Assembly (NCBI GenBank): GCA_013336165.1
Contig: JAAXUF010000006.1
Span: 1 to 64,000, forward strand
Length of the DNA stretch: 64,000 nucleotides
Direction: 5' to 3'
Source: Coriobacteriia bacterium
GTDB lineage: Bacteria; Actinomycetota; Coriobacteriia; Anaerosomatales; JAAXUF01
A program made the position numbers and the translations under genes. Position 1 is the stretch's first letter. The number at the start of each line of letters is the position of its first letter. Below, piece after piece: positions 34,896-62,071 of this stretch. The notes beneath the pieces were generated by a model. It ran no database searches. It saw only the letters and a list, made by a program, of their open reading frames with translations, and was not told the DNA's origin.

Positions 34896-34904
34896 TGACC
34901 ACAC

Positions 34905-36597: not shown

Positions 36598-36648
36598 AGG
36601 CTTGATTCAGGTCTGGTAAATGTCGCACGCAGGGTCTAAGATGACGGC

Positions 36649-37605
36649 ATGGAAAAACGACTGGTTGAGCGAAGCAAAGTAATTGCCTATGAATGCGCGG
36701 TCTGCGCGCGAGCCACAGACGCTCCCGAGGGAACAGTACGCCTTGAGAGACGACTCTGTCGGGAGTGTTTCCCGAAGCGAGAGGATCGTCGCCCGAAGGA
36801 TCTAAATGACCTCACTGGGAAAGAGTGGGCACAGGCAAGCAAGAGCGTTGAGCAGTACCCCGATACCCGTTCACCGAAACAGAAACATCATGGTGCCTGC
36901 TTCCCTGAGGCTCTGGCCCTGCACCAAATCGGCATCTATACCAAGACAGGCGGACGAGTCTTGGACCCCTTCGTTGGCATCGGAACCACCCTGGATGCGT
37001 GTGCCGCTCTTGGTCGGCTCGGCGTGGGACTCGACATCAACCCGGATTTCATAACTGCGGCCAAGAACGATCTCTCAAATCGAAACGGCGGTGATAAGCA
37101 ATCCGTCATTGAGGCCGACGCGAGGAACCTTCTGACCTACGTGGAACCCGACACTATCGATTTCGTACTAACCAGTCCGCCTTACGGTCCACTGCTTCAA
37201 CAGTCCAAGCAGGCCTTCGCCTACAAATGGCGAGAGCACTCGCGCATCAAGGAAATGCCCAACCCGCTTCCATATTCGAACGATGATCGTGATCTAGGCA
37301 ATCTGGACTATGAGGATTTCCTAGGTGCCTTGGAGGAAGTCCTTGCAGGCACTCTCGGCGCTCTGAAGTCTCGCGGGTATGCAGCTTGGGTGGTCAAGGA
37401 CTTCAGGGCGCTGAAACGAGGAGTCCCCTATGTTAACTTCCACGGGGACCTCATAGAACGTGCCCAGAGAGTAGGCTTCGACTTGTGGGACCTGCGAATC
37501 TATGATCAAACCAAGTTCCGACCGCTCGTCTGCATGGGCTATCCCTCTAGCAACTTCTACCTCAACATAGGGCATTCGTACATCGTGGTACTTCGCAAAC
37601 CGTGA
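36649..37605 (+). CDS. DNA methyltransferase 1 of the restriction locus
   Basis: A 318-aa beta-class amino-methyltransferase. AdoMet motif I appears as DPFVGIGTT (about residue 106) and the catalytic motif IV as TSPPYG (about 175), the form common in N4-cytosine methylases. A zinc-ribbon-like start (CAVCAR...CRECF) precedes the catalytic core. It lies 51 nt behind the nuclease gene, and its stop overlaps the next methyltransferase start (GTGA). Its role is protection of one strand of the host site. Confidence 0.88.
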   Translation: MEKRLVERSKVIAYECAVCARATDAPEGTVRLERRLCRECFPKREDRRPKDLNDLTGKEWAQASKSVEQYPDTRSPKQKHHGACFPEALALHQIGIYTKTGGRVLDPFVGIGTTLDACAALGRLGVGLDINPDFITAAKNDLSNRNGGDKQSVIEADARNLLTYVEPDTIDFVLTSPPYGPLLQQSKQAFAYKWREHSRIKEMPNPLPYSNDDRDLGNLDYEDFLGALEEVLAGTLGALKSRGYAAWVVKDFRALKRGVPYVNFHGDLIERAQRVGFDLWDLRIYDQTKFRPLVCMGYPSSNFYLNIGHSYIVVLRKP

Positions 37606-38780: not shown

Positions 38781-38813
38781 CCCTCCCAGGCTCCGTGGAT
38801 CTTGGGAGCCTTG

Positions 38814-39245
38814 TCATTCACCGGGTTGGCTCAATAGGAATTGCATTCGCTCGTAGGTATTGACGTCAAGGGTGAAGATCGTGCCCTGAAAATTCCTACG
38901 GACAGCCCTCATCTCAGCTAGTAGGGGGTCGTTCTTCATCCTTTGCGCCGTCAATGCCGAGTCGAAGCGACGAATGACTCTGATTTCCATGTAGGCGAGA
39001 CCCTCGTTGAGATCTGAGACGTAGCCGGAGCAGGGAGAACCGCCCGGCTTCTGAGATCGAGTATCCACATCTACTTCGGCTTCGGCGAACACCCCTTGAA
39101 ACTTGGGACTGACAGATCTTGGACAGTACAGGAGGACCCTGTCTCCTACATTCGCGCGTTGTGGCAGGCACCACCAAGAATCTCGCGTTTCCGTGTCCAG
39201 AAGATCCTTTCTTCGCGTTATCGCGAGCCAGTATTGCGGAAGCAC
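38814..39245 (-). CDS. EVE-domain protein
   Basis: A 143-aa protein of the EVE/PUA-like fold: YWLAITRRKDLLD at the start, the family's NVGDRVLLY-type segment (ANVGDRVLLYC), EAEVDVDT and a C-terminal VNTYERMQFLL helix. EVE domains bind modified bases in DNA or RNA and often accompany restriction systems. It faces the methyltransferase genes tail to tail with 33 nt between them. The start is GTG at 39245 with AAGGGA upstream. It may read the methylation made by the neighbouring enzymes or recognise modified phage DNA; both are inference. Confidence 0.75.
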   Translation of the reverse strand: MLPQYWLAITRRKDLLDTETRDSWWCLPQRANVGDRVLLYCPRSVSPKFQGVFAEAEVDVDTRSQKPGGSPCSGYVSDLNEGLAYMEIRVIRRFDSALTAQRMKNDPLLAEMRAVRRNFQGTIFTLDVNTYERMQFLLSQPGE

Positions 39246-39556
39246 AGCGGATTCCCTTCGACGACGGTAGGCGTTACTGGATACATCGTCGCCCTGCCGC
39301 CCGAATCAGTCAAAGATGGCTAGGAAAACTCTGCTCCTGCTTTTCAGGGGACTAGGTCAGCCGGACCTATGTCGGGTTCTGGGACGCAGACGCGCTCAGG
39401 CTCTCCGCGCCCATACTTCCTATGTCCGAACGGACCCGGAAACCGTCCGGACAGGACAATTCGTTGACTCTGGACCGCGATGATGAAACCCACTACCTTG
39501 GGAAACGCTTATCCCTCCTCGAGAACTGCGGTTGCGAACTCCCCCGGGGTATGAGA

Positions 39557-39579
39557 TCGCCCCGAATTCGCCCCGAATG
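39557..39579 (-). repeat. Candidate integrase arm-type site, copy 3 (inverted)
   Basis: On the minus strand ATTCGGGGCGAATTCGGGGCG, the same doublet as at 34048 and 47344 but inverted, 26 nt from the 3' end of the integrase gene. The rest of 39246-39604 holds no gene I can support. Confidence 0.55.
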
Positions 39580-39604
39580 GGCTACGAATCTGGCTTGAAA
39601 CAGC

Positions 39605-40771
39605 CTAGCTTCCGGTCCGCGCTTGCGCTTCTCCAAGCATTCTGTCGAAGCGGTCCGCCGCCGCCGCATCCATCCCCGGCAGCACGTGCGTGTAGGTATC
39701 GAGGGTAAGCGTCGCCGTGGAATGTCCTAGACGATCCGAGACAACTTTCACCGACTCACCAGCCTTGAGCAGAAGTGTTGCGTGCGTGTGGCGAAGATCG
39801 TGGAAGCGCACACAGAAACCGTTGGTGCCGCAGAACTTTGCGAAACGACTGGTGAGCCTGTCCGGCGGATAGGGTGAACCATCAGGTTCAGCGAAGATGA
39901 GGTCCTGCTTGTGATATCCGGGCCCAATGAGCAGTCGCTCCTCGGCTTGGCGGCGTTTGTACGACGTCAGCTCGGAGATCGTCTGTCCCGGCAAAGCAAT
40001 CGTGCGCCGACTCTTTGCCGTCTTTGGATCCTTGAAGGACAAGCCTGTCCGTTGTGTGGTCTGCAGCGATCGTCTCACCGTGGCAGTGCGCGCTTCGAAA
40101 TCAAGATCGGACCATCGGAGAGCGAGTATCTCGCCTCGACGCATGCCCGTGGTCAGCGCCACGTGGGAAGCCATATAGAGCGTGCGGTCGCCTTCTCGCA
40201 GAAGTCCTAGCATCCGCGCGACCTCCTGCTCGTCTAGGGCGTGCATCTCCTTGCGCCGTGGCCTAGGTGATTCGACGGCATCGCAGGGATTTGAGTGGAG
40301 CAGCCCCAAGCGCACCGCGCGTTTCAGCGCAGCATGCAAGACGCGATGAATGCCCTGGACCGTCCGCTCGCTGACTGGGCCTCGTCCCGAGCCGTTCTGC
40401 AGTGCATCGGAATACAACCGCTCAAGATGAGCTGGCGTGAGTTTCTGTAGCTGGACTGCACCGATTCGAGGAATCACGTACCTGTTGCACACCCCTTGGT
40501 ACCCTTCGGTGGTTGTGGCGGCGAGGTGCTTCTGCTCGCAATGCCTCACGTAGTCGTCAAGATAGGCAGCGACCGTCTGTTTCGTGGGATCAATGTGTGT
40601 GCCCTCGTCAATGTCATGGCGAAGCTCCCGGCTCTTGCGCTCAGCGTCAGCCCGAGTCCCATGCACCCGGACCTGCATACGCCGGTAGCGCTGGGTCTTC
40701 TCATCCCATCCGCGACTGACTCTGACCTCCCACGCATTGTCGCGTTTACGGATTCCGTCCCGTTTACCCAT
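39605..40771 (-). CDS. int: Tyrosine recombinase integrase of the tRNA-Ser island
   Basis: A 388-aa phage-type integrase. An N-terminal arm-binding region (GIRKRDNAWEVRVSRGWD...) is followed by a SAM-like core-binding domain and the catalytic domain. Catalytic residues are seen in TGMRRGE (Arg, about 210), HDLRHTHA (His-x-x-Arg, about 324), LGHS (about 345) and DTYTHVLPG (nucleophile Tyr, about 357). It should catalyse insertion and excision at the tRNA-Ser repeats. Unlike most such integrases it is in the middle of the element, 6 kb from one border and 7 kb from the other. Its start overlaps the stop of the upstream unknown gene by 8 nt. Confidence 0.93.
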   Translation of the reverse strand: MGKRDGIRKRDNAWEVRVSRGWDEKTQRYRRMQVRVHGTRADAERKSRELRHDIDEGTHIDPTKQTVAAYLDDYVRHCEQKHLAATTTEGYQGVCNRYVIPRIGAVQLQKLTPAHLERLYSDALQNGSGRGPVSERTVQGIHRVLHAALKRAVRLGLLHSNPCDAVESPRPRRKEMHALDEQEVARMLGLLREGDRTLYMASHVALTTGMRRGEILALRWSDLDFEARTATVRRSLQTTQRTGLSFKDPKTAKSRRTIALPGQTISELTSYKRRQAEERLLIGPGYHKQDLIFAEPDGSPYPPDRLTSRFAKFCGTNGFCVRFHDLRHTHATLLLKAGESVKVVSDRLGHSTATLTLDTYTHVLPGMDAAAADRFDRMLGEAQARTGS

Positions 40772-41618
40772 CTTCGCTCGTCCCCATCCTCTTGCTCGCC
40801 GCCTTGGAAATGGTCGTCCCTATGTTGCGCAACATGTCATCAACAGCTTTGCGCTCCCCGGCTGAGAGCTCATCTGCCGCCAAAGCGTCCAACAATTCCC
40901 CAAGCGTCCTCCCATAGACCGATTGGCGCGCCTCGTCATAGAACCAGCCCAGCCCGTCCGACTGTCCGGTGAGTGATTGCTCGGCCTTGTGGAAGTCGCT
41001 GGCAATGGCTTGTGGTGATAGGTACGCCCAGTCCGGATACCGCATGTTCCACGTCTCAAGACGCTTTCTCCATGTGTCAGAGCGGGGCGACTCCAGGCAA
41101 ACGAACCGCACGAGCGCGAGCTTCCTCGCGCCCCATGGACGCGTCCTTCTGAGCCATCCCCGTTTGTTCAACTCAGGCCAAACCGAACGCAGTTGCCGGA
41201 TGAGAGCATCAAGCGACAGGCGATTGTCGAAACTCACTTCGATCCGTTCCGAGCAACTCGGCACGATGCCGAGATCCAAGGTCCTAGACGCAAAGGTCAA
41301 TGGAGCCACGACCACTCCTTCGCTTGTCTCGGCAATAATGCGATTCCCCAATTCCGCCAACAGAGGCCAGCGACCGTCGGGTTCGCCTTGCCCGTCCGTA
41401 GGTGCATGTTCCTCGATTGAGTTTGCACCGTTTCCCGGGAGCAGCTGACACGCAGACAGACACTCGATGATCCGTCGGGCACGTCGAATCACTTCGGATC
41501 GGGTCTTGTCGTCTTCGCTGTTCAGGTATCTGCTCACGAAGCCCGTGATCTCGAGGAAATGGCGCACGCTCGGTGGCACATCGTCAATAGCCTCCCAAAA
41601 CTGCTCTACCTTAGTCAT
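40764..41618 (-). CDS. Unknown 284-aa protein coupled to the integrase
   Basis: A soluble, mostly helical protein with charged segments (TRSEVIRRARRIIECLS, RKRLETWNMRYPDWAYLSPQAI) and a C-terminal helix pair (LDALAADELSAGERKAVDDMLRN). No domain is recognised. It overlaps the integrase start by 8 nt, so the two are co-translated, and is divergent from the excisionase-replication operon across 182 nt. The placement suggests control of integration/excision or of replication. The ATG has GGGGTAAG upstream. Confidence 0.7.
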   Translation of the reverse strand: MTKVEQFWEAIDDVPPSVRHFLEITGFVSRYLNSEDDKTRSEVIRRARRIIECLSACQLLPGNGANSIEEHAPTDGQGEPDGRWPLLAELGNRIIAETSEGVVVAPLTFASRTLDLGIVPSCSERIEVSFDNRLSLDALIRQLRSVWPELNKRGWLRRTRPWGARKLALVRFVCLESPRSDTWRKRLETWNMRYPDWAYLSPQAIASDFHKAEQSLTGQSDGLGWFYDEARQSVYGRTLGELLDALAADELSAGERKAVDDMLRNIGTTISKAASKRMGTSEDG

Positions 41619-41800
41619 TTATCTTACCCCTTAATTGCAATGAGAGTCTCTATAGTCGATAGTTTATTCGCATAAGTCTTGGAGGTCAACATGAACGTGC
41701 TCGCATCAGGTACCAACCGCCTCTGGCCAAGTGGTCCCTGCCAGTTGCCCGGTCAGAGTTCACCGCGACGTAGCGAAATGGGATAAGGAGACGATTGACC

Positions 41801-42001
41801 ATGAGCCCGAAATGCCCGCCACTGCAACTACGCGAACTGCCCGACCTGCTGACTGTGAACGAAGTAGCGGCCCTACTACGTATCGGACGTGGTAAGGCTT
41901 ACACCCTCGTCAGAACAGGCGCTCTGCCATCGGTGACACTCGGCAGGTCGCTCCGAGTGCCTAAGGCAGCTCTCGAGCGATTCCTGCAGGGAGGCTCATG
42001 A
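41801..42001 (+). CDS. Excisionase/AlpA-like helix-turn-helix protein
   Basis: A 66-aa protein built around a MerR-like HTH_17 domain: LLTVNEVAALLRIGRGKAYTLVRTGALPSVTLGRSLRVPKAALERFL. This is the DNA-binding fold of excisionases and related directionality factors. The ATG at 41801 lies ten nucleotides past AAGGAG; a TTG two codons earlier sits closer to it and cannot be excluded. Its stop overlaps the start of the zinc-finger gene by 4 nt, so it heads the replication operon. Confidence 0.85.
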   Translation: MSPKCPPLQLRELPDLLTVNEVAALLRIGRGKAYTLVRTGALPSVTLGRSLRVPKAALERFLQGGS

Positions 42002-42258
42002 TGAGCGGCCCAATCGATATCGTTTTGGAGCGTCTCGATGAGGCACGGCCTTGCGGCACCGGGTGGCGAGCATGCTGTCCGGCGCACGGGGATACAAACC
42101 CAAGCTTGAGCATCAGTGAAGGCGCTGACGGACGCGTACTTATGCACTGCTTCGCGGGTTGCTCGATCGAAGATGTGGTCTACGCCCTTGGGCTCGAAAT
42201 GCGCGACCTGTTTCCCCGTTCGAACGATCAGGATTGGCGGCGGCATCATGGCATCTAG
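41998..42258 (+). CDS. CHC2-type zinc finger of a DnaG-like primase (separate peptide)
   Basis: An 86-aa peptide holding a primase zinc-binding module: CCPAHGDTNPSLSIS, then HCFAGCSIEDVV, and ALGLEMRDLF. In most primases this finger is the N-terminus of the TOPRIM protein. Here it ends in its own frame, and the next gene starts 11 nt before its stop, in the +1 frame. It may work in trans with the TOPRIM-helicase, or the two could be joined by ribosomal frameshifting. Confidence 0.85.
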   Translation: MMSGPIDIVLERLDEARPCGTGWRACCPAHGDTNPSLSISEGADGRVLMHCFAGCSIEDVVYALGLEMRDLFPRSNDQDWRRHHGI

Positions 42259-44344
42259 GCAATCACTAGGCCCGCAAAGCTCCGCGATCGGATGTTGCTT
42301 GGCAGAATACGCGTCCTCCAAGAAACTCCCGGTCGAATTCCTCCATGGATTGCAGCTGCAGGATACGACCCACAGTGGAAGACCAGCCATTCTCATTCCA
42401 TATCGCGACGAGGATGGTCAGGACATAGCAATACGCTACCGGCTGAGCATGGAGGGACAGCGCTTCGTTTGGCGCAAAGGTGCCCGCGTGGCCCCGTACG
42501 GACTGGACCGTCTGTCTGATGCGCGCAAGGCGGGCTACATTATTCTTGTCGAGGGGGAATCGGACGCCCAAACCTTGTGGCATCACGGGGAACCGGCGCT
42601 GGGGCTTCCGGGAGCCAGCACATGGAAAGAGGAGTGGGCGTCTTCGCTAGACGATATTCAGGTGATCTACGTCTTTGAAGAATGCGACAAGGGTGGCGAA
42701 ACGCTCATCAATGCTCTCTCGAAGTCTGCGCTCGCGCCCCGCATCCGAGTCATTCGCACAGCGTATGCCAAGGACCCCAGCGAACTGCACGTCCAAGATT
42801 CGAGTGCATTCGCAACACGATGGCGCTCGCTGCTGATTGGTGCTGACCCACTGCCCCCACTGTCTCTCGAACAGAATAAGGGGAAGGACTCAACAAAGAC
42901 AGAGATCCTTCTCAAGCTTGCAGATGGCGTCGAACTCTTTCATTCGCCCGATGGGTCACCCTTTGCCTCTGTTGTCGTCAATGATCGCCGCGAGACATGG
43001 CCAGTTCGTTCCAAGGCATTTCGCCGCTGGCTCTCGGGACACTTCTATGAGCACAACGGCAAGGCTGCAGGAGGGCAGGCACTTCAAGATGCGCTTGATG
43101 TCCTTGAAGCGAAAGCACAGTTCGATGGGTGCTGCCGTGACGTGTTCGTTCGACTCGCCACCTATGAGGACTCAATCTACCTTGATCTCGCCAACGAGGA
43201 ACGCGAGATCGTAGAGATCACCGCTCATCGCTGGAAGACCGTGTGTGATGGCCCTGTGCGCTTCCTCCGTCCGAGCGGGCTCCTTGCGTTACCGCGTCCC
43301 ATGATGCCGGGGAGCGTTGAGCTTCTCCGACCGTTCGTAAACGCAGGCAGTGACGACGACTTCCGGATACTTGTCGCCTTCCTCCTTGCCGCCCTGCGGC
43401 CAGACGGCCCGTACCCAGTCCTAGTCCTCATGGGGGAGCAAGGATCAGCGAAGTCGACAACGGCGCGCGTCCTGCGGGCCCTTGTCGACCCTGCTACGCC
43501 TCCGCTGCGAACCACACCTCAGAGCGAACGCGACACAATGATCGCGGCCAAGAACACATGGATGCTCGTATTCGACAACGTCTCAGGACTGTCTCCGTGG
43601 CTCAGCGATACCTTCTGCCGTCTCTCGACTGGAGGCGGTTTCGCCACCCGAGAACTCTACACGGACTGCGACGAGATTCTGTTCGACGCCAAGAGACCGA
43701 TCGTTCTCAACGGCATCGGAGACTTGGTCGGCCGTCAGGACCTTACTGATAGGTGTCTTCTCGTCACACTCCCGCCAATCACTGACGAAAGTCGACGGGA
43801 TGAGGCAGGGTTCTGGGCAGAATTCGAAGCTGTGCGAGCGGGAATCCTCGGCGGGCTGCTCAATGCAGTTTCATGCGCACTTGCGAACATCGACAGCGTC
43901 ATCCTTCCCTCAGCACCACGAATGATAGATTTTGCTCGGTGGACCACGGCTGCAGAGCCCTCATTTGGCTGGGCACCCAAGTCCTTCGTTGCTGTGTACT
44001 CAAGAAACCGGCGTAATGCGATTGATGTCGCACTCGAGACCGATCCTGTCGCAACAGCCGTGCGTGAACTCCTCGAGGTAGCTGAGAGCGAAACTTGGAA
44101 TGGCACCATGAGCGAGCTGCTGGAAAGCTTGGAGAATCCGCCGGGGCAGATGCGGCATCCGCGCGATTTGCCACGCACCGCGAAGGACCTCTCAATCAGG
44201 CTCGACCGTGCATCCCCTACTCTTCGGGCAGTAGGCGTGGAGATTCGCAAGCATCGCGGGTCAGGCAGACGATCACGATTGGTCGAGATAAGGAAGGTTG
44301 CATCCCGCACCGACGTTTGCGACGCGTTCGACGCCCCCGCATAG
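42248..44344 (+). CDS. TOPRIM primase-helicase replication protein
   Basis: A 698-aa protein. The N-terminal third carries a TOPRIM-like fold (YIILVEGESDAQTL at about residue 99 and VIYVFEECDKGG at about 140). The C-terminal half is a DUF5906-like helicase with Walker A GEQGSAKSTTARVL (about 395-405), Walker-B-like WMLVFDNVSGL and a sensor-like VLNGI. It should prime and unwind element DNA. The start ATG overlaps the finger gene by 11 nt. The helicase half is closely related to that of the protein at 58533-60890, while the N-terminal halves are unrelated. The last codons overlap an inverted 9-bp repeat cluster. Confidence 0.87.
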   Translation: MASRQSLGPQSSAIGCCLAEYASSKKLPVEFLHGLQLQDTTHSGRPAILIPYRDEDGQDIAIRYRLSMEGQRFVWRKGARVAPYGLDRLSDARKAGYIILVEGESDAQTLWHHGEPALGLPGASTWKEEWASSLDDIQVIYVFEECDKGGETLINALSKSALAPRIRVIRTAYAKDPSELHVQDSSAFATRWRSLLIGADPLPPLSLEQNKGKDSTKTEILLKLADGVELFHSPDGSPFASVVVNDRRETWPVRSKAFRRWLSGHFYEHNGKAAGGQALQDALDVLEAKAQFDGCCRDVFVRLATYEDSIYLDLANEEREIVEITAHRWKTVCDGPVRFLRPSGLLALPRPMMPGSVELLRPFVNAGSDDDFRILVAFLLAALRPDGPYPVLVLMGEQGSAKSTTARVLRALVDPATPPLRTTPQSERDTMIAAKNTWMLVFDNVSGLSPWLSDTFCRLSTGGGFATRELYTDCDEILFDAKRPIVLNGIGDLVGRQDLTDRCLLVTLPPITDESRRDEAGFWAEFEAVRAGILGGLLNAVSCALANIDSVILPSAPRMIDFARWTTAAEPSFGWAPKSFVAVYSRNRRNAIDVALETDPVATAVRELLEVAESETWNGTMSELLESLENPPGQMRHPRDLPRTAKDLSIRLDRASPTLRAVGVEIRKHRGSGRRSRLVEIRKVASRTDVCDAFDAPA

Positions 44345-44371
44345 CGCACTCGTCGCAAGCGTCGCAAACGC
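44312..44371. repeat. Inverted 9-bp iteron-like cluster at the replicase 3' end
   Basis: Units in one direction, GACGTTTGC, GACGCGTTC, GACGCCCCC (44312-44338), then after about 15 nt units in the other direction, GCAAGCGTC and GCAAACGCC (44354-44371). The core CGTTTGCGACGC / GCGTCGCAAACG is a perfect 12-bp inverted repeat. A similar layout with a different unit lies just behind the replicase of the second element. A replication origin or replicase binding site is likely but inferred. Confidence 0.5.
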
Positions 44372-44432
44372 CGCAGAAATGCTCTACATGCGCGGAACAT
44401 GGCCACAGACGCCCTGTGGCAGAAACTCGATT

Positions 44433-44519
44433 CACCAACGTCCAGCGAATGAGCAGACGCGCGCGCAACCTCACAGGTCAGTCTACCTCTTGGCGTTCTG
44501 CTCGATGCCTTTGTTAGGC
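44433..44519 (-). repeat. Candidate integron attC site 2, degenerate at one side
   Basis: On the minus strand it begins GCCTAACAAAGGCATCGAGC, identical to the opening of the better site at 46641-46722, and closes with GAGCAGA/TCTGCTC arms and a degenerate core GTTGGTG. The ATPase stop codon is inside it, as is common for cassette genes. The outer core pairs over only about five bases, so it may be decayed. Confidence 0.55.
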
Positions 44520-46624
44520 GTCTCCGCCTTGCTTGCGTCAAACGGAATCTCAAAGACAATTGGCTTCTCAGAACGCACCCACTTGCCAAATGCAACGGCA
44601 TGCAGCGGCGGAAGATTGGGGATCAACGCGACATGCTCCGGGCCGAAGATGTTACGAAGGAAGCCAAGGCTGGTGTCGTCGTAGCAGGTGAAACTGATGA
44701 TCGTGTTGCATTGCGTCAACACGGTCTTGCTAACGGTGGCGGTTCTCTGGGCGAGGACGAGCAGTCCAACCCCATATTTCCTGCCCTGAAGAGCAATCTG
44801 TCCAATCTTTCCAACGAGACCCTTGGAATCGAAATCGCCGAGTCCCATTGTGTTCGGCTCAGGCATTACGGTGTGAGCTTCCTCAACTACGATGAGGGTG
44901 CGCGGACAGGTTCCATGATTCTCGCGGGCATATTTGAGCAGACACGTCATATAGAGCTCAGTAATCCAGAGCGTGGCCTTGGTGTTGGAGATTTCCTCGA
45001 GCCGAATGAGCCCCAGGTGAGATGTCGCATCGTCGCTCAGGAATCCGGCGACCGAGGTAGTCACATCAGATCGTAGGGCCTCCGCAAACTCGTTCAGCGC
45101 CTTCTTTTCCCCTGGAGCGCCGTAAGTTCCAGTCTCGACATCGAATAGCTTGTCCCCAAGCTCCTTGGCGGTCTTCTCGTCTATCGAGAGGTCGACCGGA
45201 TTCAAGTCCGAGAGCCGCTCTTGATACTGGGCCGTAAGATCAATGCAGACGACGCGAATGTCGTTGTCTAATGCATGTCGAATTAGGTCGAAGGCAAGCT
45301 CGGTCTTTCCCGAGCCCGTAACCCCGAGAAGTGCAGTGTGATAGTTGTAGTCAGCCGAGAAATCGCCGCCAATCTGGATGCACGAGTTGGGAATCGTTCC
45401 AAGGATGAAGTCCCCATCGCGCGTAGCGGCAGTTTCAATTGCACAGCCCTTCGACGCCGAGAACACCGGAGTGTTCATTGTAGGAAGCCATTCGAACTTG
45501 CGAAATCCCGTGTGCTCGAGAAGCATGCCGAGCTGAGCGGCTGCAGCGACTTGGAACCCGTGCTTGTCCGTCGCGAACGACTCCTCCCGCGTCTCGCCGG
45601 CAACAACTTGATAGAAGACGCGTTCGCCTGCAACTTGCGACCACACAAGCATTCCGTCGTGACATGATTCTGGTGAGAGGGTCTCGAACCGTATGCCCCC
45701 GATGGTGGAGCCCTCGACCACGAACCCGACGAGCGACGCATTGACCCCGCCACCAAGCGACTGCGTGATTGCATCCAAACTCGGGGGAATAACGCCTTCA
45801 CCGGGCCGCAGAACACAGTTCTTTGCTCCTTCAGTCGAGGGAGCGTCTAGGCTCGTGACAAGACCGGTTGCCAGAAGGTGGTCGTCTTGAAACTGCGAGT
45901 AGAGCGGCTGCACCCACTGCGATTGCCCGCTTGGAAGGACGCATACGCATGGCTCGTCTGGCTTCCAGCTCGCTCCGCCATCAAGTGCAACCCGCAGGAT
46001 ATTGGGACTGTCAATACGGACAATCTGTCCCAACGCCTTCGCTGACGGCGTACTCCGGTCGAACCAAGCTGTGATGAGCTCCGGAAGTTGCAGTGGCCAT
46101 ATCGCGACGAAGATTCCCCAGAAGAGAACGAGCGCAAGCGTGATGGGTTCTTGAACTGAGAAGAAGAACCACAATCCGAAGATGAAGACAACGGAAAACA
46201 AGACGCGTGCGCTTCCAAGCACGATTGACGGACGATATGTGTGACTCGCGACCCAATCCCTCCAGCCTGTGAGGCCAGGTTTTGAGCTAGCCGCAACGCA
46301 GGCAGTACCCAAGACAAATACAGCCACGCAATACGAGGATACTGCGATCCACGGCCAGATCGGAGCAATCGCGTAGACGCTGAGGAGCGTGATGAAGCCC
46401 ATGAGCGAATTGACTATTGAGTCTGCGGGCTTCGTGTACTGATGCTCGAGGAGCGCAGATCCCAGCACGATCAAGAGAAGGGCGTTTTGGAAGACCAGCG
46501 CCTCACGAGGGTTGTGCGGAAGTAGACTCCCGGTGAAATACAGCGACATTCCAGCAATTGCTGCGGTTGCCACCAACATGATCGCAACGCGCACCCACGG
46601 GTCAACCCGCATGTCGTTCGTCAT
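44483..46624 (-). CDS. Membrane-anchored HerA/DUF87-type ATPase in a cassette
   Basis: A 713-aa protein: about six N-terminal membrane helices (residues about 12-190), then a beta-rich HAS-barrel-like region and an FtsK-HerA ATPase with Walker A GVTGSGKT (about 428-435) and Walker B LIVVEEAH (about 578). HerA-type motors translocate DNA; membrane-tethered forms occur in defence islands and in DNA-transfer systems. Its ATG is 14 nt after one attC-like core (GTTAGGC), and its stop lies inside a second, which is the compact layout of an integron cassette. No nuclease partner such as NurA or SIR2 is next to it. Function unknown; anti-phage defence is a reasonable guess. Confidence 0.85.
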   Translation of the reverse strand: MTNDMRVDPWVRVAIMLVATAAIAGMSLYFTGSLLPHNPREALVFQNALLLIVLGSALLEHQYTKPADSIVNSLMGFITLLSVYAIAPIWPWIAVSSYCVAVFVLGTACVAASSKPGLTGWRDWVASHTYRPSIVLGSARVLFSVVFIFGLWFFFSVQEPITLALVLFWGIFVAIWPLQLPELITAWFDRSTPSAKALGQIVRIDSPNILRVALDGGASWKPDEPCVCVLPSGQSQWVQPLYSQFQDDHLLATGLVTSLDAPSTEGAKNCVLRPGEGVIPPSLDAITQSLGGGVNASLVGFVVEGSTIGGIRFETLSPESCHDGMLVWSQVAGERVFYQVVAGETREESFATDKHGFQVAAAAQLGMLLEHTGFRKFEWLPTMNTPVFSASKGCAIETAATRDGDFILGTIPNSCIQIGGDFSADYNYHTALLGVTGSGKTELAFDLIRHALDNDIRVVCIDLTAQYQERLSDLNPVDLSIDEKTAKELGDKLFDVETGTYGAPGEKKALNEFAEALRSDVTTSVAGFLSDDATSHLGLIRLEEISNTKATLWITELYMTCLLKYARENHGTCPRTLIVVEEAHTVMPEPNTMGLGDFDSKGLVGKIGQIALQGRKYGVGLLVLAQRTATVSKTVLTQCNTIISFTCYDDTSLGFLRNIFGPEHVALIPNLPPLHAVAFGKWVRSEKPIVFEIPFDASKAETPNKGIEQNAKR

Positions 46625-46640
46625 CCAGTCCCCCCTGTAC

Positions 46641-46722
46641 GCCTAACGTCTGAGGCATGAGCGGTGGTCATGCCCAACATTAGCGTACCGCATCGGCCAT
46701 CCGCTCGATGCCTTTGTTAGGC
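46641..46722 (-). repeat. Integron-type attC site 1
   Basis: 82 bp. Outer cores GCCTAAC (46641-46647) and GTTAGGC (46716-46722) are perfect complements and fit RYYYAAC/GTTRRRY. Inner arms AGGCAT+GAGCGG (46653-46664) pair with CCGCTC+ATGCCT (46701-46713), with one unpaired base at 46707 and a further bulge. Bulged bases between imperfect arms are a hallmark of attC recombination hairpins. Short unpaired spacers and a loop of about 30 nt complete the shape. It directly follows the stop codon of the 88-aa gene upstream on the same strand. Confidence 0.72.
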
Positions 46723-46734
46723 CCCAGACGTTGC

Positions 46735-47001
46735 TCATCTCATGGCGGTCATCGCGGCGCTAATCAGCGTATCGCCGACATGCACTGCAACGGTTCCCTC
46801 ATACGTAAAGCCTGCGTCCCCCACCTCGCGTGGCGTCGCTTGCCGATATGCGCTTCGACCCTCACGCACCAGAATCGAGAACCTTCCGTCCATGGCTAAG
46901 GCTTGGACGATCACAACGCAAGAATCGCCGCAGGATGACTCGTGAGACCCTTTGATTCTCGCAAGCGGCACAGCCTCACGGATTGCTCCAGCCACTGGCA
47001 T
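46735..47001 (-). CDS. 88-aa cassette protein, unknown
   Basis: The ATG at 47001 follows AGAGGTG by about six nucleotides; a longer upstream frame lacks a site and is not credible. The protein is small and strand-rich, with one CGDSC pair, VREGRSAYRQATPREVGDAG in the middle, and a hydrophobic end (VAVHVGDTLISAAMTAMR). Its stop is 13 nt from an attC-type site, as expected for a cassette gene. Two very short ORFs overlap or abut it upstream. No homology recognised. Confidence 0.6.
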   Translation of the reverse strand: MPVAGAIREAVPLARIKGSHESSCGDSCVVIVQALAMDGRFSILVREGRSAYRQATPREVGDAGFTYEGTVAVHVGDTLISAAMTAMR

Positions 47002-47014
47002 TACGCACCTCTTC

Positions 47015-47065
47015 TCAGTTGATCTCGACACAGCGCTTGCCGCCCCAATGTGCCTCGTCAGCCAT
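47015..47065 (-). CDS. 16-aa mini-ORF in the cassette ladder
   Basis: MADEAHWGGKRCVEIN. Its ATG overlaps the end of the 48-aa ORF, and its stop is 13 nt before the 88-aa gene. It could be a coupling leader or a peptide. Support is only the tight packing. Confidence 0.3.
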   Translation of the reverse strand: MADEAHWGGKRCVEIN

Positions 47066-47204
47066 TCTCGAAGCCCGAGTACGGACAGATGTCGCATTCG
47101 GGACACGTCGCCATGTCGCGAGTGGAGTCGGGGCAGTCCGACGGCGAATCGATTTCTGGCGCGGGGATTTGCGCCTGCGGGGTAGCGCCTTCTTGATCGT
47201 CCAA
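47058..47204 (-). CDS. 48-aa Cys/Pro-rich small protein, first gene of the cassette ladder
   Basis: It starts at TTG (47204) eight nucleotides after GGAGGG and stops at 47058. The peptide is acidic at the start (MDDQEGATPQAQIPAPEID) and ends with clustered cysteines (DCPDSTRD, CPECDICPYSGF), a possible zinc knuckle. It overlaps the 16-aa ORF by 8 nt. It is likely real given the strong ribosome binding site, but unrecognised. Confidence 0.45.
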   Translation of the reverse strand: MDDQEGATPQAQIPAPEIDSPSDCPDSTRDMATCPECDICPYSGFENG

Positions 47205-47343
47205 AGTGAACCCTCCTCACGGATCTCGGCTCGTACGCCTACTCTTGTTTGTACGGTCGGTATATCACACCCTCCACAGATCTGGCTCTGTAAGTCTGTA
47301 AATGAGAAGCAGCTCTAGCGCATAGACACGAGCGTAAGACAAG

Positions 47344-47370
47344 CATTCGGGGCGAATTCGGGGCGAAAGG
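47344..47370 (+). repeat. Candidate integrase arm-type site, copy 4
   Basis: GCATTCGGGGCGAATTCGGGGCGAAAGG, the same doublet as near the left border, about 38 bp inside the right att repeat. Its presence near both ends and beside the integrase gene suggests integrase arm binding. Confidence 0.6.
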
Positions 47371-47372
47371 GC

Positions 47373-47412
47373 AAAAAGAGACGCGAGCCCGGCGCTTCGG
47401 AAAGCGTCCGGG
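47373..47412 (-). terminator. Rho-independent terminator of tRNA-Ser
   Basis: Imperfect hairpin CCCGGCGCTT / AAGCGTCCGGG (47388-47397 with 47402-47412) read from the minus strand into TTTTT (47373-47377), 21 nt past the tRNA 3' end. Part of it is copied at 33827-33857, so it lies within or next to the att footprint. Confidence 0.75.
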
Positions 47413-47490
47413 ATCGCATATGCCCAGCTACATGGCGGAGAGGGGGGGATTCGAACCCCCGTAACGCTCGCGCGCTAAACGGTTTTCGAG
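47408..47490 (-). repeat. attR-type direct repeat of the tRNA-Ser island (83 bp)
   Basis: Partner of 33848-33930. This copy belongs to the intact tRNA gene, so insertion restored a functional tRNA. Confidence 0.9.
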
Positions 47491-47522
47491 ACCGCCGCAT
47501 TCAACCACTCTGCCACCTCTCC
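47433..47522 (-). tRNA. tRNA-Ser (anticodon CGA)
   Basis: 90-nt class II tRNA on the minus strand: acceptor GGAGAGG with CCTCTCC, discriminator G and encoded CCA (47433-47435), D-arm GGCAGAGTGGTTGAATGC, anticodon loop CTCGAAA (CGA, reads UCG), long variable arm GCGCGCGAGCGT-like, T-loop GTTCGAATC. It is the integration target of the neighbouring island. Confidence 0.95.
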
Positions 47523-56406: not shown

Positions 56407-56973
56407 CTAGCCTTTCCTTCTCAGCGCACCTTCCAGTTCTTCGTCGAAGACATGCGTATAGATCATCGTCGTACTCACGTCGGAATGCCCCAACGCCTTC
56501 TGCACAAGCCGGATGTTCTTGGTCTTCCGCAGCAAGTCGGTTGCGAAGGTATGCCGCAAGATGTGGGGCGTGACGCGCTCCGCCTCCGCGACTCCGGCCT
56601 TAACGGCGTAGTGCTTTACCATCGTTCGCAGGTAGCGAGTGTTGAGCTGCTCCCCGTCCCGAGTCGGAAACAGCCACGGTGATGCCGGCCTTCTTCCAAG
56701 CCAGAGCCCGATGAGGTCACGCAAGTCGTCTGAAATCCAGAGCACGCGATCCTTAGCGCCTTTGCCCTCTCGGACCATCAACCGGCAAGTCATCATATCG
56801 AGGTGTTCTGGCCGCAAGGCGACGAGCTCCCCTGCTCACAAGCCGGCTTCAAGAGCGACGCGCAGAATGCAGCGATTGCGCAGACCTGATGCATATCGGG
56901 GATTCGGCTGCGAGACCAGGCGGCGCTGTTCCTCGGGTGTCAGAACCTTGGGCAGTTTTTTCGGTCGTGCCAT
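56407..56973 (-). pseudogene. Tyrosine recombinase broken by one in-frame stop
   Basis: From MARPKKLPKVLTPEEQRRL to the end at 56407 the reading frame encodes a recombinase catalytic domain, with HILRHTFAT, LGHSDVSTTMIYTHV (nucleophile Tyr) and a C-terminal basic tail. One TGA interrupts it where the family has Arg (EAGL-stop-AGELVALRPEHL), consistent with a CGA-to-TGA change. There is also no N-terminal core-binding domain, so the gene is truncated as well as nonsense-mutated. A leftover integrase next to the second mobile region. Confidence 0.75.
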
Positions 56974-57201
56974 CGGTGGCCTCCCAAAATAGTAAAGGGT
57001 GCGTCGTACCGAGTCCCACCGGAGTCGGTACGCATACACATACTCGTTAGGACCACCTGGAAGACATAGGTAGAAACGGTATCAATCAACGCGGAGGCCG
57101 CTAACTGGTCAGCCGGCGGCACGCAGCTCATTTCGACCACAGGGCACTATCGATCAGCTATGGCATTCGTATCCGTTCCCTATGAAATCACTGGGACGAG
57201 T

Positions 57202-57305
57202 GATGTGCCCGACGTGTCCTGATGTGTCCTGACGTGTCCGGCCATGGACGGACTGGATGCGAACGCCTGGGCACATGCGGATACGTCGGGCACATCGGGC
57301 ATGTC
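57202..57305. repeat. Inverted iteron cluster A, upstream of the second replicase
   Basis: Forward units GATGTGCCC, GACGTGTCCT, GATGTGTCCT, GACGTGTCCG at 57202-57240, a 28-nt spacer, then inverted units at 57269-57305 (GGGCACATGC, GGATACGTC, GGGCACATC, GGGCATGTC). The motif is GA(C/T)GTG(T/C)CC in a 9-10-bp period. The region 56974-57201 has no gene. Confidence 0.6.
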
Positions 57306-57344
57306 ATCGCGAGCAACTTCCCCATGTATCCCAAATACTCAGAC

Positions 57345-58430
57345 CTAGCCCCCAGTGACCCACTTGAGCACGGTCACAGACTTGGTGGCGCGGTAGCCCT
57401 CTTCTTGCTCGAGGATCTTGACGATCTGTTCCGGGGTCCGCGAGGAATCCTCACCGTGCAACTGAACTGCGCGCGCTTTTCGCTTCTCGTATGCAAGCTG
57501 CTTGCACACCTGATCACAGTAACGTCGGTTGCCTCTCGCCACGTCTGGGTGATGGATGCGCCATTTTCCGCAGCTACGGCATTTCAGGAAAGTCGAAGAA
57601 GTCCCTTGAGCCTGCCCGATCTGATACCACATGAAGCGCCACAGGCTATCGGGGACGATCTGGAGTTGATGAGCACCCCGAGAGCCCCGAACGACACCAA
57701 AAGCCAAACCGGTCGAGAGAAACGCATTAGTGAGGTCTGCAAGGAGGGCCTCTCGATATTCTCGGTCGTACACCTCTTCTTGCCCTCGTCGCGGCACAGG
57801 AACGCGGCTGTCTTCTGCGCCCCCTGTGAGCATCGTGGAAATCGTGATGTGACCGAAAGCCCTTCGCGGGCCCATGTCGGACTTCCCTCTGAGCCACGAT
57901 GTTACCCAGGAGCGAGCACGAGCCTTGTCGCCCAAATCGGCGTCGTTGTCAGCCTGCCACAGGCGAGCAGCCAGATGCAGTAGTTCTGCTGCCGTCTTCC
58001 AAGTGGCAAGTGACTCCCCGGACCGATGGTAGAGTCCACGCTCGGAATCAAGAATGAGGGAAGGCAAGTCCTCTCGGACTCCCAGCAAACCAGAGTCGCG
58101 TGCGAACTCAAGGCAGCGAGCCTGAAACGCCTCACCTTGCACTTCTGCTATTTCAGCGAAGTCCAAGAAGAGTGCTGTGTGCTCTCCGTCAAACGGGTCA
58201 TAGCGTGCTGCACCTTGCATCTCGGCCAGTCGCTCTATCGCAGGGCGCCCGAGAGCTTCGTCGTATCGCTCGGCCCATGGCATCTCGCCGACCTCGTCGA
58301 CCACAGGCCAACCACAAAGCCAGGTCTTCTCCGTCAGGTGATCATTAGAGTCCACGCTAATCCATGTGGCGCATGCAGGAGCCTTTTCCCAGGTGAACGG
58401 GGCTATCGATGCAGGTTCCGCGTTGATCAT
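57345..58430 (-). CDS. Unknown protein with a C-terminal zinc finger, second element
   Basis: A 361-aa soluble protein. Near residue 290 is a zinc-finger motif CRSCGKWRIHH...YCDQVCKQ followed by a Lys/Arg-rich helix, in the style of CGNR-type fingers. The rest is helical and acidic with no clear domain. The start ATG (58430) is four nucleotides after GGAGG; an overlapping GTG at 58433 is less likely. Divergent from the prim-pol gene across 102 nt and beside iteron cluster A, so it may bind DNA there and act in element regulation. Confidence 0.65.
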   Translation of the reverse strand: MINAEPASIAPFTWEKAPACATWISVDSNDHLTEKTWLCGWPVVDEVGEMPWAERYDEALGRPAIERLAEMQGAARYDPFDGEHTALFLDFAEIAEVQGEAFQARCLEFARDSGLLGVREDLPSLILDSERGLYHRSGESLATWKTAAELLHLAARLWQADNDADLGDKARARSWVTSWLRGKSDMGPRRAFGHITISTMLTGGAEDSRVPVPRRGQEEVYDREYREALLADLTNAFLSTGLAFGVVRGSRGAHQLQIVPDSLWRFMWYQIGQAQGTSSTFLKCRSCGKWRIHHPDVARGNRRYCDQVCKQLAYEKRKARAVQLHGEDSSRTPEQIVKILEQEEGYRATKSVTVLKWVTGG

Positions 58431-58532
58431 CACGCCTCCACTTACGCTTTCTCGACAGTTAGCGTACCCCCGTTAGCGGTCTCATACAAGCAATGAGTTC
58501 CAATACCGGAGCTCGAGACTCTAGGAGGCCTT

Positions 58533-60890
58533 ATGGGTACCGTTGGAAAAAAGCTGGACTCCTCTATCCCAGGGGAACTGCGCGCGCTCGATCAATGGGT
58601 GTGCGCGAAAAGCAAGGTGCCGGTCCGTCCGGCAGATCCATCACGGAATGCGAGCGTGAGCGACCCGACCACCTGGGCGAGCTTCACGCTGGCGCAAGCA
58701 AAAGTAGACACAGGGGCGGCGGACCACGTCGGCTTTGTCTTTACTGCCGACGACCCCTTCGTCGGGCTCGACCTGGATCACTGCCTCGATAGTGATACTG
58801 GGGTGCTTGACCACCGAGCCGTTGAGATCATCGCCTTGGCGGCCACCTACACCGAGATCTCGACTTCGGGCACGGGGCTGCACTTGTTCTTCCGCGGGAG
58901 GGTCCCTCATCCCGTCAAGACCGGCGGGATTGAGATCTATGGCTCGGGGCGCTACTTCGTAACGACCGGCAACCACCTCGAGGGTACGCCTGCATCAATC
59001 CGTGAGGTCGGTGATGTGCTTGGGCTGCTCGCGGAGTTCCTTCCTGAGCGCGCCGAGCCCGCGGCAAAGCCCAAGTCCCTTGTCTGCGTGGCCGACACCG
59101 AACTCAAGAGTGCTGACAAAGATCTGCTCGGCATCCTGCAGCGCGGCAAGAAGGCCCGCGCGAAGTTCGAGGCGCTCTGGGCCGGAGACTGGCAGCGCGC
59201 TGATAGCTACTCTTCACAGTCCGAGGCCGATCTCGCGCTCGCCTGCCTCATTGCCGACAAGACTGAGAGCCCGGCACAGATCGACCGGCTGTTCCGACAC
59301 TCGGGGCTCATGCGCCCCAAGTGGGACGAGGTCCACTATGAGACGGGTGAGACCTATGGTAGCCGCACGATAGCCATCGCGCTCGAGTCGGCTGCCTCTC
59401 ACGAGCATGCCTCGACCACCCAAGTCGAAGAGCTACTGTCCCTGCCTCAGGATCTTGAGCTCTTCTGTGACCAAAGCGATGCGGCCTTCGCCTCGTCAAG
59501 TATCAACGGGCATACCGAAATCCATGGCATAGAGTCCTCCTCATTCGAGAGGCTGCTCACCATGCTGTTCTTTCGTAAGTGTGGCCGTGCCCCCGGGACT
59601 GAGGTCATGAAGTCGGCAATCGCGACACTGGTGGCACGTGCCCGCTATGAGGGTCGGACCGAGAACGTCTTTCTCCGCGTTGGGCATGCGGCAGGCAAGG
59701 TATACCTGGACCTTGCCGATGACGCCTGGAGGGTTGCCGAAATCGATGCTTCCGGCTGGCGCATCCTGAACGCAAGCCCTGTGCGGTTTAGGCGCCGCTC
59801 CGGCATGCTTTCCCTTCCTGCTCCTGAGGCTGGGGGGTCGCTTGCCGAGCTTCGTCCATGTCTAAACGTGGCTGATGATGAGACCTGGGCGCTTGTCCTC
59901 GGGCTGCTCGTAGGCTTCCTGCACCCGACTGGCCCCTATCCGGTAGGCATCCTGCATGGTGAACAGGGTTCGGCCAAGTCCACGACCGCCCGCATTCTGC
60001 GCGCCCTGATAGACCCCGCCAAGCCCGCGCTTCGCGGTACGCCTTCCACCATCGACGACCTGATGATCGCCTCATCCAACTCGTGGGTGCTAGCTTTTGA
60101 CAATCTCTCCAGTGTCAGCGCCAGCTTCTCGGACGCGTTTTGCCAGCTTGCCACCGGCGGCGGGTATGCCAAGCGCAAGCTCTACCGGGATGACGATGAG
60201 GTTCTATTCGACCTCAAGCGCCCTATCCTCATCAACGGCATCACTGACCTTGCCTCACGCGCTGACCTGGCCTCCCGCGCCCTGATCCTGCGCATGCCGC
60301 ATATCACGCCCGAGAAGCGCCGTCTTGAGACCGACATCGTGAGCGTCTTCGAGGCCATGCGCCCTCGGCTTCTAGGCGCGCTTCTGGATGCTGTTTCCTG
60401 CGCGCTTTCCAACGTGGGTTCGGTCAAGCTCATCGGACACCCGCGTATGGCTGATTTCGCGGCGTGGGTCGTGGCCTCCGAGCCGGCACTCCCGATCGCG
60501 CCTGGCTCGTTTCTAGCGGCCTATGAGGCAAGCCAGGCCGAGACCGTACTTGCGGGTCTCGAGAGTGACCCGGTGGCGGTTGGCATCCTTGATCTTGCAT
60601 ATCGTGAGCCAGGGTGGACCGGCACGATGGGTAAGCTTCTGTCCGAGCTCAATAGCGCGATAAACCCCAGCTACCAGAGCGGTCAGTGGTGGCCCAGAAC
60701 TGCGCGCGCGCTCGGCAACCGCCTCGACCGCCTGGCTAGCTCCTTGTCTACGGCGGGCGTCACGCCTGAGCGTCGGCGCGACAATGACCATAACCGCCGC
60801 CGCATCATCGTGCTCAACGTTGATCCATTCGTTCCCGAGATCGGGCTTGACGACGATATGCTTGCCCTGCGTGTGAAACGCGCGAGCTAG
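58533..60890 (+). CDS. Primase-polymerase/helicase replicase of the second element
   Basis: A 785-aa protein. The N-terminal region looks like an archaeo-eukaryotic prim-pol: VGFVFTADDPFVGLDLDHCL (metal-binding D-x-D near residue 79) and EISTSGTGLHLFFRG (about 108-120), as in NrS-1/ORF904-type enzymes. After a linker comes a helicase with Walker A GEQGSAKSTTARIL (about 476-486), WVLAFDNLSSV and LINGITDL. The helicase half is strikingly similar to residues 330-640 of the TOPRIM protein at 42248, but the primase half is unrelated. The ATG follows TAGGAGG. It would replicate the excised element alone. Confidence 0.87.
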   Translation: MGTVGKKLDSSIPGELRALDQWVCAKSKVPVRPADPSRNASVSDPTTWASFTLAQAKVDTGAADHVGFVFTADDPFVGLDLDHCLDSDTGVLDHRAVEIIALAATYTEISTSGTGLHLFFRGRVPHPVKTGGIEIYGSGRYFVTTGNHLEGTPASIREVGDVLGLLAEFLPERAEPAAKPKSLVCVADTELKSADKDLLGILQRGKKARAKFEALWAGDWQRADSYSSQSEADLALACLIADKTESPAQIDRLFRHSGLMRPKWDEVHYETGETYGSRTIAIALESAASHEHASTTQVEELLSLPQDLELFCDQSDAAFASSSINGHTEIHGIESSSFERLLTMLFFRKCGRAPGTEVMKSAIATLVARARYEGRTENVFLRVGHAAGKVYLDLADDAWRVAEIDASGWRILNASPVRFRRRSGMLSLPAPEAGGSLAELRPCLNVADDETWALVLGLLVGFLHPTGPYPVGILHGEQGSAKSTTARILRALIDPAKPALRGTPSTIDDLMIASSNSWVLAFDNLSSVSASFSDAFCQLATGGGYAKRKLYRDDDEVLFDLKRPILINGITDLASRADLASRALILRMPHITPEKRRLETDIVSVFEAMRPRLLGALLDAVSCALSNVGSVKLIGHPRMADFAAWVVASEPALPIAPGSFLAAYEASQAETVLAGLESDPVAVGILDLAYREPGWTGTMGKLLSELNSAINPSYQSGQWWPRTARALGNRLDRLASSLSTAGVTPERRRDNDHNRRRIIVLNVDPFVPEIGLDDDMLALRVKRAS

Positions 60891-60900
60891 CCCCGAACGT

Positions 60901-60992
60901 GACCTGACCGACGTGCCCGATGTGTCCGATGTGACCGCTCGCCTCTACTTGTGCGCGTTCACACGGGCACATCGGACACGTCAGGACACGTC
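60901..60992. repeat. Inverted iteron cluster B, downstream of the second replicase
   Basis: Forward units GACCTGACC, GACGTGCCC, GATGTGTCC, GATGTGACC at 60901-60936, then 28 nt, then inverted units GGGCACATC, GGACACGTC, GGACACGTC at 60965-60992. The unit and the 28-nt spacer match cluster A. It begins 10 nt after the prim-pol stop. Confidence 0.6.
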
Positions 60993-61120
60993 GATCGGAC
61001 CTAAAACAGCGCTCATCCGCAACGCCCATGGGTGCGCCGCTGTGAATCTCTCCCACGGACCGCTTTATTCCTCGCACCGCGAGCTCAATGATCACGTCAC
61101 AACCGATACAGGAGGTATCC

Positions 61121-62071
61121 ATGCACCCCGAACAAACGCTCGCCGAGTACCTGAAGTGCTGGCTTGAGGACTACGCAATGCCCAACGTAGCCGGCAAGAC
61201 CTATGAGCGCTACGAACGCATCGTCCGGCTCGACGTCGTGCCCCACCTCGGGCACGTGAAGCTCGCTGACCTAAAGCCCCTACAGATCCAGTCGTTCTAC
61301 TCAGAGTTGCTTCGCTCAGGCCGCAAGAAGGGCGGAGGGCTTGCACCCTTGACCGTCCGCCACATCCATCGGCTCCTGCACAAAGCCCTCTACCAGGCAG
61401 TCCGATGGGAGTTGATCGGGAGGAACCCCGTCGACGGTGTGGATGCTCCCCGGGTGCAGCGCAAGGAGATGAACGCGCTGGATCGTGAGGGCCTTACCCG
61501 GCTTCTGAACCTGCTACGCGGTACCAAGTTCTACATGCCTGTCATCATCGCTGCCACGACCGGTATGCGCAGGGGCGAGATCATGGCGCTGCGCTGGTCG
61601 GATGTTAACTTCGATGCCGGCACCCTGCGAGTGAGTCGCTCTCTTGAGCAGACGGGTAACGGGCTCGCGCTGAAGGAGCCGAAAAGCCGCTATAGCAAGC
61701 GGACGATCTCACTGGCCCAGGCAACGGTAGATGCACTGAGAACGCATCGCGCCAACCACGACACGGGGCCCGAAGGCTTGATCGTGTGCCGGCCTGACGG
61801 CACGTACTGGCCCCCTGACCAACTCTCAGCGGAATTCCACAGAATAGTACGCAGAAATGGCTTTACCATCCGCTTTCACGACCTGCGCCATACACACGCC
61901 TCAAACCTGCTGCGTGACGGTGTGCCAATCAACGTGGTTTCGCGACGGCTCGGTCACTCAGAACCCTCGATCACCCTGAATGTGTACTCGCACGTGCTTC
62001 CCGGCATGCAGGAGGAAGCGGCTGCTAAAGTGGACCTGATGATGGATGATGTGCTCAGGAATGCCAGCTGA
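61121..62071 (+). CDS. int: Tyrosine integrase of the second element, lacking an arm-binding domain
   Basis: A 316-aa integrase starting MHPEQTLAEYL after AGGAGGTATCC. The core-binding domain and catalytic domain are complete: TGMRRGE, FHDLRHTHAS, LGHSEPSITLNVYSHVLPG with the Tyr nucleophile. Compared with the 388-aa integrase at 39605 it lacks the N-terminal arm-binding part (the first about 60 residues), although the two are clearly related. Either it uses simple sites or it is a shortened copy. It lies at the right end of the prim-pol element. Confidence 0.88.
   Translation: MHPEQTLAEYLKCWLEDYAMPNVAGKTYERYERIVRLDVVPHLGHVKLADLKPLQIQSFYSELLRSGRKKGGGLAPLTVRHIHRLLHKALYQAVRWELIGRNPVDGVDAPRVQRKEMNALDREGLTRLLNLLRGTKFYMPVIIAATTGMRRGEIMALRWSDVNFDAGTLRVSRSLEQTGNGLALKEPKSRYSKRTISLAQATVDALRTHRANHDTGPEGLIVCRPDGTYWPPDQLSAEFHRIVRRNGFTIRFHDLRHTHASNLLRDGVPINVVSRRLGHSEPSITLNVYSHVLPGMQEEAAAKVDLMMDDVLRNAS

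Follow-up and report, generated by a model that had tools for sequence, protein, structure and literature searches.

Twin opposed repeat arrays around a divergent prim-pol/helicase module, candidate replication-origin DNA of an integrative element in a Coriobacteriia bacterium

Results

Opposed arrays at the 3′ ends of two divergent genes

The DNA analysed here (the window) is a stretch of 64,000 nucleotides from contig JAAXUF010000006.1 of a Coriobacteriia bacterium. It contains a module of two divergent genes, one encoding a prim-pol/superfamily 3 (SF3)-like helicase and the other a putative zinc-finger protein, and a cluster of short repeats was found at the 3′ end of each gene. Array A lies past the zinc-finger gene (stop at 57345) and array B past the prim-pol gene, beginning 10 nt after its stop codon (60890). 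Both are built of GAYGTGNCC units set in two opposed arms around a spacer (Table 1); array A (57202-57305) holds four forward and four inverted units, and in array B (60901-60992) four forward units, of which the first has one mismatch, face three inverted ones.

The initial annotation had described two clusters of equal geometry, each with a 28-nt spacer, on either side of the prim-pol gene. Four forward units, a spacer and three or four inverted units were indeed found in both, but the 28-nt spacer holds for array B only, the spacer of array A being 29 nt, and the geometry is close rather than exact, with a forward-arm pitch of 9/10/10 in array A versus 9/9/9 in array B. The prim-pol gene does lie between the clusters, but the zinc-finger gene lies there too, and it is the two-gene module that is flanked. 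The view that such clusters are unlikely by chance was confirmed: comparable arrays were absent from all of 100 dinucleotide-shuffled versions of the window, GAYGTGYCC matched exactly 13 times in the window against 3.3 expected, and all seven matches to strict tandem unit pairs in the whole 1.99-Mb genome fell within arrays A and B. As a control, the unit pattern read backward gave 0 tandem-pair matches in the same genome.

Table 1. Features of the module, its arrays and the adjoining element (positions in the window)
Feature	Position	Strand	Details
Second replication gene, same helicase family	42116-44344	+	DNA-primase-like N-terminus (PHROG); in the 33873-47432 element
Inverted array of the second replication gene	44315-44378	+	GTTTGCGAC GCGTTCGAC ... 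GTCGCAAGC GTCGCAAAC GCCGCAGAA
tRNA-Ser(CGA)	47433-47522	-	integration site
Array A, forward arm	57202-57239	+	GATGTGCCC GACGTGTCC(T) GATGTGTCC(T) GACGTGTCC; unit starts by sequence scan 57202, 57211, 57221, 57231
Array A, spacer	57240-57268	none	29 nt, GC-rich
Array A, inverted arm	57269-57305	-	GGGCACATG(C) GGATACGTC GGGCACATC GGGCATGTC; unit starts by sequence scan 57269, 57279, 57288, 57297
Putative zinc-finger protein gene	57345-58433	-	362 aa; divergent from the prim-pol gene
Prim-pol/HBD/SF3-like helicase gene	58533-60890	+	785 aa; HBD PF22763; Walker A GEQGSAKST; predicted C-terminal winged helix
Array B, forward arm	60901-60936	+	GACCTGACC GACGTGCCC GATGTGTCC GATGTGACC; unit starts by sequence scan 60901 (one mismatch), 60910, 60919, 60928
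Array B, spacer	60937-60964	none	28 nt
Array B, inverted arm	60965-60992	-	GGGCACATC GGACACGTC (A) GGACACGTC; unit starts by sequence scan 60965, 60974, 60984
Tyrosine integrase	61088-62071	+	PF00589, PF14659; N-terminus shorter than in the G029 homologue

The twin layout recurs in a related element

Of the 60 relatives that were searched first, one, a genome from another family of the same order (G029), was found to carry the twin layout. Its prim-pol is 60% identical to that of the window, the divergent zinc-finger gene is 48% identical, and GAYGTGNCC arrays stand at the 3′ ends of both genes. The right array has perfect 18-nt inverted-repeat arms around a 25-nt spacer; the left array shows three clean inverted units and degenerate forward units. 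The expectation that units would be conserved in related elements thus held for their order and near-equal pitch but not for the exact spacer, which ranged from 13 to 111 nt across 32 arrays of the wider helicase family described below. The G029 element is about 14.25 kb long and is delimited by direct repeats of 68 bp, in which the 5′ half of tRNA-Ser(CGA) is contained; among its genes are those for an integrase, an Mrr-type endonuclease and two D12 methylases. Beyond the window and G029, no strong match to the zinc-finger protein was obtained in 396 genomes of the class or 69 genomes of the order, and in viral contigs no close relative of the full prim-pol or of the zinc-finger protein was confirmed; the full twin layout with the zinc-finger gene is known from these two elements only.

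Arrays follow the helicase across a distant family

Distant homologues of the helicase half were collected from metagenome-assembled genomes (MAGs), viral contigs, plasmids and genomes of the same phylum. With an early, strict caller, a tandem-plus-inverted cluster was found between -400 and +700 nt from the end of the helicase domain in 42 of 101 nonredundant loci, where the cluster density in the remainder of those loci would predict 1.5. The early callers missed clear arrays (in G029 and L013) and were replaced by a scored caller with shuffles, applied to the 300 nt after the helicase-domain end. An array score of at least 5 was then obtained in 54 of 96 3′ regions versus 2 of 96 mid-gene regions and 0 of 71 regions lying 1500 nt downstream, and 48 of the 54 high-scoring arrays also reached p <= 0.05 against local shuffles. 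Such 3′ arrays were present in phage contigs, MAGs and plasmids of Methanothrix, Streptomyces, Stanieria and Chlorohelix. On plasmid pH6Ac, GC skew showed no clear switch at the array.

The units are about 9 nt long and differ by element (for example ATCGTTCCC, CATGCGACC, ACCGTCAGC and GTGACGCAG). When the units of 48 arrays were rotated and aligned, a common core, nCGTCnnn, was recovered (3.84 versus 3.07 ± 0.07 for permuted columns). Unit similarity tracked the identity of the C-terminal domain after correction for helicase identity (partial r 0.25; 0 of 500 permutations), and the converse was weaker (16 of 500 permutations). This link is suggestive of recognition of the units by the C-terminal domain and falls short of proof, because relatedness is only partly controlled. 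Helicases with arrays have fused, short or absent N-terminal parts; the arrays thus follow the helicase, and neither the primase nor the zinc-finger protein. Elsewhere in the locus, another array sharing the unit of the first was found in the window, G029, L162, L236, L203, L220, L194 and L172. In four of these (L162, L236, L203 and L220) it lies between the N-terminal part and the helicase, either within the reading frame or close to it, hinting at possible module junctions or extra sites.

The proteins of the module

Residues 19-284 of the prim-pol matched the NrS-1 primase by sequence (PDB 6a9w, 8e-28), the N-terminal 284 residues also matched PriRep1 of SaPI5 (7ola), an element of the Staphylococcus aureus pathogenicity islands (SaPIs), and the HBD matched PF22763 at 1.9e-16. 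An AlphaFold2 (AF2) model of the C-terminal 495 residues (CTR), based on 53 homologues, gave a predicted local distance difference test score (pLDDT) of 91.2 and ended in a predicted winged-helix-like unit within residues 409-473, with helices at 409-419 and 434-450 and strands at 453-459 and 467-473. The top structural neighbour of this model was again 7ola (Z 19.1 over 373 residues), and further structural matches were to poxvirus D5/E5 and to Cch of the staphylococcal cassette chromosome mec (SCCmec); comparison with the NrS-1 CTR (6k9c) gave a Foldseek value of 2e-8 with a TM score of only about 0.4.

The zinc-finger protein bears in its C-terminal region a putative Cys4 zinc finger (CX2CG...YCX3C), CGNR-like by eye. 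NCBIfam, PHROG and PADLOC gave no match for it, and Pfam none that was significant; weak matches were to proteins of about 306 aa in other genomes of the class, and its AF2 model was unusable (pLDDT 43). A tyrosine recombinase remnant was also noted at 56407-56992 on the minus strand, where a longer reverse-strand stretch carries in-frame stops and is open only at 56407-56817.

Arrays A and B as candidate origin DNA

Taken together, we consider, with a probability of roughly three in four, that arrays A and B serve as replication-origin DNA of an integrative mobile element and consist of iterons bound by its initiator. The earlier proposal of an origin bound by an element protein is well supported because the twin layout recurs in G029, 3′ arrays are widespread in the helicase family, and known relatives, by fold or by function, use such arrays as origins to which they bind (PMC7581432, PMC3583192). 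Array B is probably the origin, since a position directly 3′ of the helicase gene is the standard one in the family. Array A may be a second origin, a partner site like crr of phage P4, or an autoregulatory site; sequence alone does not tell it apart as origin, partner site or operator. As candidate binder, sequence and modelled structure would favour the C-terminal winged helix of the prim-pol/helicase, because the arrays occur across the helicase family and the zinc-finger protein in two elements only. The interpretation given in the initial annotation is thereby partly supported and sharpened.

Several observations weigh against an origin function. By the criteria used, arrays were absent from about half of the relatives, including most of the divergent clade L210-L230, and in 29 of 48 called arrays the reference unit lay within the reading frame; part of this in-frame signal could reflect 3-residue protein repeats, although the inversion argues otherwise. 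The spacers of arrays A and B, GC-rich by inspection, lack AT-richness. Finally, the window integrase lacks the part present at the N-terminus of the G029 homologue, and array B sits at the expected start of that missing part; the integrase may thus be truncated and the element decaying.

It was also considered that the hairpin or cruciform itself, and not the unit sequence, might matter, as in a pRN1-like stem-loop origin, which we regard as unlikely. Arrays A and B can be folded as DNA hairpins (z -5.7 and -5.8), the right array of G029 folds well as single-stranded DNA (z of the three arrays, -4.9 to -5.8), and pRN1 requires its stem-loop (PMC4234260); however, the left array of G029 folds no better than shuffles (z -0.4). 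In a comparison covering 32 arrays, mismatches came to 1.72 for mirrored units and 1.80 for non-mirrored ones (lower in 11 arrays, higher in 7); this mirrored-pair test was not significant, and a hairpin-first model was rejected as a general rule. Unit identity and the CGTC core are what the arrays have in common; secondary structure may be helpful but is apparently not the conserved feature. Slightly less likely still, the arrays could be twin operators, bound by the zinc-finger protein or the initiator and controlling transcription or convergent read-through, with the origin elsewhere. Each array does lie 3′ of one of two divergent genes, and the zinc-finger gene is conserved with the module in G029, but a 3′ location is unusual for operators, a simple scan of 56900-61300 gave no sigma-70-like promoter, and dozens of loci have arrays 3′ of the helicase versus two elements with a zinc-finger homologue.

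Array A of G029 lies about 73 bp inside the attachment repeat and array B of the window adjoins the integrase gene, as arm-type sites for the integrase or an accessory factor would. That role is nevertheless very improbable: the location of the arrays follows the helicase gene, array B of G029 is about 4 kb from the integrase gene, and plasmids too have a similar array 3′ of the helicase, among them pH6Ac, which has no annotated integrase. Least credible, and hardly worth entertaining, is a role as transcription terminators or 3′ RNA hairpins. Strong inverted repeats just past stop codons would suit it, but no T-tract terminator was found at array A, the sole nearby call (61008-61026, minus strand) falls outside array B with the call count at chance level, no Rfam match was obtained, and tandem 9-nt units are unexpected in terminators.

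The tRNA site and the neighbouring element

An exact 61-bp repeat of the 5′ half of tRNA-Ser(CGA) with upstream DNA was found at 47481 and at contig position 69061, past the window. These copies set the outer bounds of the element or elements with the twin arrays (47481-69061); the bounds are loose, because the copies of tRNA halves suggest tandem element accretion. Further 5′-half copies occur at contig positions 71215 and 73739, and the 3′ half recurs as a 58-bp copy at 33873. In the window no att pair was found near the module, the tRNA repeats giving outer bounds only. With tRNA halves repeated on both sides (32878-47522 and 69061, 71215, 73739), tRNA-Ser(CGA) looks like a hotspot of tandem integrative elements, and both replication genes of the window sit within this apparent accretion.

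The adjoining 13.6-kb element at this tRNA gene (33873-47432) possibly carries defence genes. It encodes an integrase (39605-40771), two methyltransferases (36649-38780), a weakly DrmC/PLD-like protein (35434-36597) and a HerA-like ATPase (44483-46624). The array of its own replication gene crosses the stop codon of that gene, and its unit (GTTTGCGAC/GTCGCAAAC) is unlike GAYGTGNCC.

Discussion

An initiator with an iteron origin 3′ of its gene is already known as a kind of system. In the literature searched, no description was found of a family-wide link between such arrays and NrS-1/PriRep-type helicases with a shared core, nor of twin arrays around a divergent module.

The closest parallel is found in staphylococci, where SaPI Rep and SCCmec Cch2 use the C-terminal domain to bind iterons that immediately follow their own genes (PMC7581432). 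Array B has the same position, PriRep1 is likewise a primase-helicase and the closest solved fold to the CTR model, and the predicted order of primase, SF3 helicase and C-terminal winged helix is shared; the helicases are only 8-9% identical, the host is unrelated, and here two arrays surround a two-gene module. No packaging, capsid-interference or stl-like repressor genes of phage satellites were recognised among the genes inspected around the module, no systematic search having been made. In pWTY27 of Streptomyces, RepA, encoded with the prim-pol RepB, footprints an inverted repeat of about 105 bp that overlaps direct and inverted 7-8-bp iterons; it adjoins repAB inside the basic replication locus, and replication is bidirectional (PMC3583192). 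By this published description, pWTY27 shares with the window a prim-pol and opposed iterons, which in pWTY27 are bound by RepA, and Streptomyces pFP11 encodes, beside a prim-pol, a CTR homologue 37% identical. Both differ in having primase and helicase as separate proteins and one iteron region, and in being autonomous plasmids.

In satellite phage P4, one initiator, alpha, reads the same iteron at two separated sites, ori and crr, and this single protein comprises a primase, an SF3 helicase and a winged helix. One initiator with two iteron sites would be the likeness to the window; the P4 primase is of the TOPRIM type, unlike the prim-pol here. Multiple short repeats beside an initiator gene also recall iteron plasmid origins.

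NrS-1 polymerase primes on GTG-containing templates (PMC8718748), and its two 8-nt recognition sites lie in mid-genome, one on each strand (PMC7102993). It resembles the window protein in a prim-pol followed by an HBD (PF22763), its own CTR being a hexameric SF3-like helicase, and GTG is present in 12 of the 15 units of arrays A and B. It differs in that two single sites and no iteron arrays are reported; GTG is not conserved across the family units, and a GTG priming motif was rejected as the general basis of the arrays. In Sulfolobus, the essential stem-loop origin of pRN1, about 100 bp long, lies directly 3′ of the prim-pol-helicase gene orf904, as array B lies 3′ of its gene, but it lacks iterons, and specific binding by ORF904 was not seen (PMC4234260).

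A tyrosine integrase and direct repeats in a tRNA gene (68 bp in G029; 61 bp in the window, as outer bounds only) are features of tRNA-integrative elements. Actinomycete integrative and conjugative elements (AICEs) are reported from Actinomycetales only (PMC3218068); those with RepPP share with the element an integrative lifestyle, a tyrosine integrase, a tRNA site and a prim-pol. A scan of proteins from around the module and from the G029 element gave no FtsK/SpoIIIE-type Tra; a HerA-like ATPase is present in the neighbouring element.

On the precedents of SaPI/SCCmec, pWTY27, pRN1 and NrS-1, we infer that the opposed arms load two hexamers and that the prim-pol primes. The prim-pol/helicase would probably bind the 9-bp units via its C-terminal winged helix, and the opposed arms would let two helicase hexamers assemble face to face and melt the origin DNA. 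The N-terminal prim-pol/HBD could then prime both melted strands, while array A would be read by the same initiator as a second site.

A bolder proposal, which we put forward tentatively and think doubtful, though less so than the alternatives above, is that arrays A and B form an obligatory two-site replicator, in which the initiator binds both and loops the 3.6-kb module or fires paired origins, and, more broadly, that an opposed array of about 9-bp units with a CGTC core, placed behind the helicase, marks the origins of NrS-1/PriRep-type replicons generally, whether in bacteria, archaea or phages. If the reading of the arrays as origin DNA is right, the origin and the recognition unit of the initiator would be predictable from sequence, by a gene 3′ end, a pitch of about 9 nt, opposed arms and a CGTC core, for a large and mostly unstudied set of phage contigs, archaeal and bacterial plasmids and integrative elements with such helicases. 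The replication start site of these elements would become directly testable, and two-site origin control outside phage P4 could be modelled simply on the twin layout.

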